A stretch of DNA of 64,000 nt from Flavobacterium sp. (GTDB lineage: Bacteria; Bacteroidota; Bacteroidia; Flavobacteriales; Flavobacteriaceae): positions 21,959 to 85,958 of the forward strand of contig NZ_JANXTI010000022.1 in the NCBI RefSeq assembly GCF_025352425.1, given 5' to 3'. The position numbers were made by a program, and so were the translations under genes. The notes under the pieces were generated by a model. It saw only the letters and a program-made list of their open reading frames with translations. It was not told the origin of the DNA and did no database searches. Numbering within the stretch: position 1 is the stretch's first letter; every line of letters begins with the position of its first letter. Positions 25,490 to 27,276 of this stretch are shown here, one piece after another.

Positions 25490-25939
25490 ATGAGTTCCAT
25501 TTACAACAAAACCGACAACGAAATTATTATTTCAAGAATCAATAAGCTTTCTCCCGACAGCCCAGCACAATGGGGTAAAATGACTGTAGACCAGATGCTT
25601 TCTCATTGCCAGGCACCCATAGATTTTGCTATGGGAAATACTCCGATGAAAGCCAATTTTCTAATGCGTCTTATTGGGAAAATGATAAAAAATAAGGTTT
25701 TAGGCGGCACCGAATTCAAGAAAAACAGCCCAACAGCTCCAAGCTTTATCAGAACCGAAGTATATGACTTTGAGCAAACCAAAAATGAACTTATCCAAAA
25801 AATTTCTATTTTTTCGGATAAGGGAAAAGATGCTATCAAAACTACTAATCATCCGTTCTTTGGCGAACTGACTTATGACGAATGGAGCAAAATGCATACT
25901 ATGCATCTTAATCATCATTTGAAGCAGTTTGGAGTGTAG
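25490..25939 (+). CDS. DUF1569 family protein
   Basis: SPAQWGKMTVDQMLSHCQAPIDFAMG...HPFFGELTYDEWSKMHTMHLNHHLKQFG. Confidence 0.87.
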   Translation: MSSIYNKTDNEIIISRINKLSPDSPAQWGKMTVDQMLSHCQAPIDFAMGNTPMKANFLMRLIGKMIKNKVLGGTEFKKNSPTAPSFIRTEVYDFEQTKNELIQKISIFSDKGKDAIKTTNHPFFGELTYDEWSKMHTMHLNHHLKQFGV

Positions 25940-26015
25940 CCCGGATTGGAACGGCATCCTTTTGTCTCGTTCTTTAACGAGACAAAAGATATAGTGGAAA
26001 GCTGGAAACAGCTCC
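25937..26015. repeat. Compact structured intergenic element: 13-bp hairpin plus GAAA-capped hairpin
   Basis: tagcccggattggaacggcatccttttgtctcgttctttaacgagacaaaagatatagtggaaagctggaaacagctcc; stem 25959-25971/25976-25988 perfect; agctg-gaaa-cagct at 26000-26013. Confidence 0.75.
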
Positions 26016-26027
26016 TAAAAATTATTT

Positions 26028-26857: not shown

Positions 26858-26925
26858 CACATTTGACCAACCTCTGGCGAAAACCGTGAATGTTGCTTAG
26901 ATTCTAAAACCATAATATAAACAAG
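26858..26925 (+). promoter_or_regulatory. rplS 5' leader, possible ribosomal-protein autoregulatory leader
   Basis: ~68-nt leader with possible pairing acatt(26870 region)...aatgt and internal GC-rich segment ctctggcgaaaaccg; not folded computationally. Confidence 0.35.
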
Positions 26926-27276
26926 ATGGCAAATTTAGTAGATTTCGTTAATAACGAATTATCAACAAAAAAAGATTTCCCTGCATTCGGAGCTGGTGAT
27001 ACAATCACCGTTTACTACGAAATTAAAGAGGGTGAAAAAACTAGAACTCAGTTTTTCAAAGGAGTTGTAATCCAAAGAAAAGGTGCAGGAATGACTGAAA
27101 CTTTTACAATCCGTAAAATGTCTGGAGCAGTTGGTGTAGAGCGTATCTTTCCAGTGAACATGCCGGCTTTACAAAAAGTAGAAGTTAACCAAAGAGGTAA
27201 AGTTAGAAGAGCGCGTATCTACTACTTTAGAGAACTTACCGGTAAAAAAGCGAAAATCAAAGAAAGAAGAAGATAA
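26926..27276 (+). CDS. rplS: 50S ribosomal protein L19
   Basis: FPAFGAGDTITVYYEIKEGEKTRTQFFKGVVIQRKGAGMTETFTIRKMS. Confidence 0.97.
   Translation: MANLVDFVNNELSTKKDFPAFGAGDTITVYYEIKEGEKTRTQFFKGVVIQRKGAGMTETFTIRKMSGAVGVERIFPVNMPALQKVEVNQRGKVRRARIYYFRELTGKKAKIKERRR

Follow-up and report, generated by a model that had tools for sequence, protein, structure and literature searches.

The window analysed here is a 64,000-nucleotide stretch of a Flavobacterium genome, in which a compact segment lies between a DUF1569 gene (PF07606; 25490-25939, + strand) and trmD (PF01746; 26040-26717, + strand). A preliminary description of this DNA, which had recognized both neighbours correctly, saw in the segment either a REP/MITE-like element or an undescribed structured RNA, and the question raised by the locus is what this element is. 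The segment is not undescribed, as it is a copy of the known family Flavo-1 (RF01705), which it matches over the full length of the model (25934-26012, + strand; model positions 1-76 of 76) with 71 bits in cmscan, the gathering cut-off being 42, and an E-value of 1.3e-13. As far as the available passages of the respective papers go, this family was described computationally in PMC2864571, is typed in Rfam as 'Gene; sRNA' and ranks among the most abundant sRNA families (PMC9029176), and in the transcriptome of F. psychrophilum its matches lie in sense or antisense to transcribed regions without distinction, many of them being untranscribed (PMC9723704). The same passages of the three papers give no function for it. 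Another Rfam match in the window, to the L19-Flavobacteria ribosomal protein leader (RF03130, 43.5 bits), is located at 26868-26895 (+ strand), preceding an open reading frame at 26926-27276.

The element consists of a base helix, which holds conserved unpaired bases, and of an apical hairpin supported by it (the tip). The 5' strand of the base (TAGCCC-G-GAT-T-GGAAC, 25937-25952, + strand) is a constant block in 104 elements, with two covarying paired positions, N7 (25943) and N11 (25947). The 3' strand is GTGGAAAGCTGGA (25994-26006, + strand), in which the A at 25999 (N11') is the partner of the T at 25947, and the T at 26003 (N7') forms a G.T wobble with the G at 25943, replaced by an A-T pair in the orthologous locus L212. 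The replaceable tip (25959-25988, + strand) is the perfect 13-bp hairpin already reported for this segment, with arms at 25959-25971 and 25976-25988 and a loop at 25972-25975. The conserved 3' end GCTCCTAA (26011-26018, + strand) is common to the short form of the own genome and to a longer form found in the related genomes G576 and G584 (L125-L184), which carries an extra 3' stretch, ATTACTGATAAAGCCC...CCATTCGCTCCTAA, ahead of this end and extends beyond the Rfam model. Compared with dinucleotide shuffles, an 85-nt stretch of the window copy reaches a z-score of -4.2 when folded as RNA and of -6.0 when folded as DNA, and none of 200 shuffles folded as well.

The DUF1569 reading frame ends on the TAG of the element itself (25937-25939), which is why the segment starts with a stop codon. 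This arrangement is found in only two copies of the own genome and is lineage-specific at the window locus, as the orthologue L212 has a TAA 15 nt further upstream; the TAG of the window copy was apparently turned into the DUF1569 stop via the loss of about 15 nt. Targeting of stop codons was considered and dropped on these grounds. A search for phage or plasmid carriage with the window copy gave no match.

A whole-genome search with the model revealed 68 matches of 51-130 nt in the 2.72 Mb of the own genome, 53 of them above the cut-off, and the genome has about 60 copies, nearly all of them between genes. Further matches are present in G576 (36), G584 (32) and G460 (41), and at least one in 98 of the 151 sampled genomes of the family and in 58 of the 396 of the phylum, most genomes compared being draft assemblies, with G487 and G460 as single contigs. 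The preliminary description was right in this respect, as Flavo-1 is a dispersed intergenic element of flavobacteria, in which the blocks are fixed and the arms of the hairpin vary. Comparison of the own-genome copies defined a shared base, 5' NTAGCCC[N7]GAT[N11]GNA... with ...GNA[N11']AGC[N7']GGA 3', and an apical part that differs among them. Watson-Crick pairing of N7 holds for 52 of the 55 copies, with all four pairs represented (shuffle mean 25, maximum 36 in 20,000), and that of N11 for all 55, with three pairs represented (shuffle mean 19.7, maximum 35). Uniqueness to this locus and stems that do not covary had been named beforehand as observations that would speak against such an element; the 68 matches dispose of the former, and the covariation of N7 and N11 in the own genome of the latter.

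The same comparison settles the two 3' pairings that had been proposed as a possible switch. The sequence of the GNRA hairpin (agctg-gaaa-cagct, 26000-26013) is indeed there, as is the alternative CCGG/CTGG pairing of 25941-25944 with 26002-26005. A switch with two mutually exclusive helices would be expected to conserve both, but the full 5-bp local hairpin can form in only 8 of 60 copies, whereas the variable position of the long-range helix is paired in 52 of 55. The long-range helix is thus the conserved structure and the local hairpin a rarity, and the idea of a switch is therefore unsupported.

The tips behave as modules. Those of the own genome comprise plain T-arm/A-arm hairpins, two very short kinds, and dispersed palindromes such as ATTGCGAGG, CGCTCAGGG and CCTGACAGG. 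When tip classes are set by simple motifs, base class is independent of tip class in this genome (permutation of mutual information, p = 0.79 and 0.50), and identical tips are found on different bases inside the single genome G460. A second base type, GCGT..GGGATTGCAGTGG...AAAGCCCGACCC, bears the same kinds of tip in own-genome copies 39, 41, 43, 46 and 48 (for example, G000:C73:73186-73265) and probably represents a sister family of Flavo-1. Two similar stretches of contigs C63 and C64 of G000 (L050, 200-520, and L039, 280-580) bear Flavo-1 copies, with an inserted segment distinguishing their tips.

Comparison of close relatives shows that an element is mostly retained at an orthologous locus, with a tip subject to replacement, inversion or compensatory substitution. 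The genomes G576 and G584 share 96.9% identity over the trmD locus, and most of their elements occupy the same loci. At seven of these (L125/L167, L128/L176, L134/L163, L139/L172, L144/L165, L148/L164 and L153/L159) the tip is a different palindrome between flanks that are 92-99% identical, and two further replaced tips (L158 and L180) were revealed when G576 was searched with the flanks of elements seemingly private to G584; the tip is kept in 11-13 pairs. Four elements that seemed to be exclusive to G584 also have an element at the same locus in G576. The limits of the replaced tract vary by locus, from the apical hairpin alone down to GAT/AGC, and the replaced elements retain their exact junctions and outer base. 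The replacing tips are often modules present elsewhere in these genomes. The loop is inverted in L143/L168 and within L125/L167, and at two loci (L140/L156 and L138/L155) the two genomes carry the element in opposite orientations. No clean empty site was found in this pair, since the lone candidate, in G584 opposite L137, holds another hairpin; the reverse search, with elements private to G576, located flanks in G584 for few loci. Opposite L179 (locus L195), G576 shows a larger rearrangement between the sister species with its breakpoint inside a Flavo-1 tip.

A second, independent pair is formed by G128 and G487, a single contig, the flanks of the G128 elements having been used to locate the loci in seven relatives. 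Here the tips are replaced at L270, L273, L275 and L279, the elements at L269 and L277 are unchanged, the tip of L278 is kept, and L282/L327 shows a compensatory change; L268 has similar arms with an altered base, and L272 and L280 are disrupted. At the locus L275/L322/L350, three species carry three different tips between near-identical flanks. More distant relatives lack some of the G128 elements, several of them L277 and L278. Taking both pairs of relatives, the apical hairpin is wholly replaced at about 40% of comparable loci, with flanks that are about 90-99% identical. The trmD locus itself offers a similar picture, as the orthologue L212 (arms GTTTCGTT/AACGAAAC, versus GTCTCGTT/AACGAGAC in the window) differs by a compensatory change from C-G to T-A, and L213 has another palindrome as tip on the same base. 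There is no element at this locus in L209, L217, L230, L231, L234 and L237.

With gene calls that were simple picks of open reading frames, the median distance of the copies to stop codons is 38 and 24 nt, and to start codons 79.5 and 77 nt. Between genes in tandem, the annotated strand is antisense in 49 cases and sense in 13 when three genomes are pooled, which are not 62 independent events because G576 and G584 share ancestry; the own genome alone gives 27:11 (p = 0.014). No replication-strand bias was obvious from the match list of the single-contig genome G460, for an assumed position of the origin. Counted over 107 tips, the pairs are 1202 Watson-Crick, 24 G.T and 3 A.C (p = 5e-5), in a sample that may be slightly biased by the Rfam model, which is more tolerant of G.U than of A.C; for the base helix, the 10 to 4 ratio of G.T to A.C is not a significant difference. 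Since the mispairs of the tips are more often G.T than A.C, foldability is maintained on the annotated strand, and this excess is compatible with RNA and with single-stranded DNA alike. DNA would be favoured because G.T pairs are few (about 2% of tip pairs) and the annotated strand is presumably untranscribed in most tandem pairs.

According to these data, Flavo-1 is probably, although with some reserve, a REP-like DNA repeat that rarely moves but exchanges its tips among copies, presumably through palindrome-provoked recombination or template switching. That Flavo-1 is instead a structured non-coding RNA, either a trans-acting sRNA or a cis element, with the hairpin conserved for use in the transcript, agrees with the strong covariation of the stems, the preponderance of G.T over A.C on the annotated strand and the Rfam type. 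It seems rather unlikely, as an RNA of this kind would have to exist dozens of times in each genome, in every kind of gene context and mostly antisense to tandem neighbours, to tolerate the wholesale exchange of its tip regardless of sequence, and to make little use of G.T pairs; the available passages of PMC9723704 add that it has no consistent strand or transcription in F. psychrophilum. Stationary bases with exchangeable tips are a better fit to a DNA repeat than to an RNA gene. A role as transcription terminator or as stabiliser of mRNA 3' ends, which the short distances to stop codons might recommend, is very unlikely. The hairpin is followed by a U-run on neither strand, the arms being followed by A-runs on both, for which reason an intrinsic terminator was dropped, and, judged by G.T versus A.C mispairs, the transcribed strand of tandem pairs is in most cases the poorer folder.

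If the repeat is DNA, its tips could differ between relatives because a non-autonomous element of the REP/RAYT or MITE kind is actively transposing, one copy being lost and another inserted. Its dispersed, intergenic occurrence, the TAG foot adjoining an imperfect hairpin and its variable presence among more distant species, including the loci mentioned above that are devoid of it (L209, L217 and L230 for the window copy, L277 and L278 in several relatives of G128), would suit such an element. Nevertheless, we regard active transposition as not very probable, given that the element is kept at most of the loci tested in the close pair G576/G584, among them the four that seemed private to G584, that replaced elements preserve exact junctions and outer base, that the GTAG tag is missing in nearly all copies and that the one Y1 transposase gene detected sits among palindromes of the ATCCCTAACGGGAT type with no Flavo-1 nearby. 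Changes by local events alone, that is, template switching within the element and point changes, would account for the loop inversions (L143/L168 and L125/L167) and for the compensatory changes (the window copy versus L212, and L282/L327). They are improbable as the whole explanation, because many new tips are modules that recur on different bases at loci unrelated to one another, including the dispersed palindromes listed above, whose repeated local origin is unlikely.

Exchange between copies in a mostly stationary DNA repeat could proceed as follows. Flavo-1 would act, if at all, through its single-strand fold; the hairpin may stall replication or undergo cleavage, and repair or template switching would then copy in the tip of a putative donor, either another Flavo-1 element or some other palindrome, with the short constant blocks serving as homology. 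Switching inside one element would homogenise the arms and flip the loop, in line with what the available parts of the literature report on template switching, which homogenises the arms of inverted repeats and inverts their spacers (PMC8604942), and creates and maintains hairpins (PMC8794818). The length of the shared blocks (about 10-25 nt), which is short for RecA recombination, counts against exchange. For the cell, Flavo-1 may matter little, for instance as a roadblock or a buffer at gene 3' ends. A dedicated tip-exchange enzyme is possible, but a system of genome-wide hairpin cassettes, in which such an enzyme recognizes the unpaired bases conserved in the base helix and swaps tips on the folded single strand, seems improbable.

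Within open-licence PubMed Central text, the passages of PMC2864571, PMC9723704 and PMC9029176 are silent on replaced tips, shared modules and biased orientation, and the combination of mostly stationary bases with exchangeable tips is a behaviour that this text does not describe for a family that is itself known. Should Flavo-1 indeed be a DNA repeat of this kind, bacterial sRNAs have been overcounted, and covariation, which normally serves as evidence for a structured RNA, can persist through exchange at the DNA level. The family would also offer a natural system for watching exchange between dispersed hairpins across species.

Among known systems, the closest is RF01705 as described in the available part of PMC2864571, with the same sequence, structure and taxonomic range, and the window copy represents it in full length; the difference is that Rfam files the family as an sRNA gene and it is read here as a DNA repeat. 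Of the earlier alternatives, the evidence leans to REP-like DNA, but without the GTAG tag and the cognate RAYT gene. REP repeats and REPINs (PMC3733652, PMC3116915) are likewise small, imperfectly palindromic and intergenic, exist in many copies, lie near gene 3' ends and include subfamilies that carry complementary stem changes. Flavo-1 is not a canonical GTAG REP, as its copies in the own genome carry NTAG, with N being mostly T or C (the window copy has the rare GTAG), and they lack a CGTC tag, exceed the 20-40 bp of the GTAG superfamily, and have a two-part architecture with an exchangeable tip and no cognate transposase found. A link to RAYTs was dropped, since no RAYT gene flanked by Flavo-1 was found and the genome's one detected Y1_Tnp gene, a 155-codon open frame (L067, 6000-7400; G000:C89), is surrounded by different repeated palindromes, ATCCCTAACGGGAT and TCCCTTTAGGGAT, perhaps its own REP family. 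A MITE would have terminal inverted repeats with a target-site duplication and would leave clean empty sites; the ends observed here are short and TTTAG-like, and the one candidate empty site, in G584 opposite L137, is not a clean one. A likeness to integron attC sites, which also have a variable terminal hairpin, was rejected, as Flavo-1 occurs as dispersed single copies without the conserved attC core. Finally, the hairpins formed by template switching at quasipalindromes, as far as PMC8794818 and PMC8604942 are available, resemble Flavo-1 in the homogenisation of arms and the inversion of spacers; those events stay between the arms of one inverted repeat, whereas Flavo-1 tips are also swapped for modules from elsewhere.
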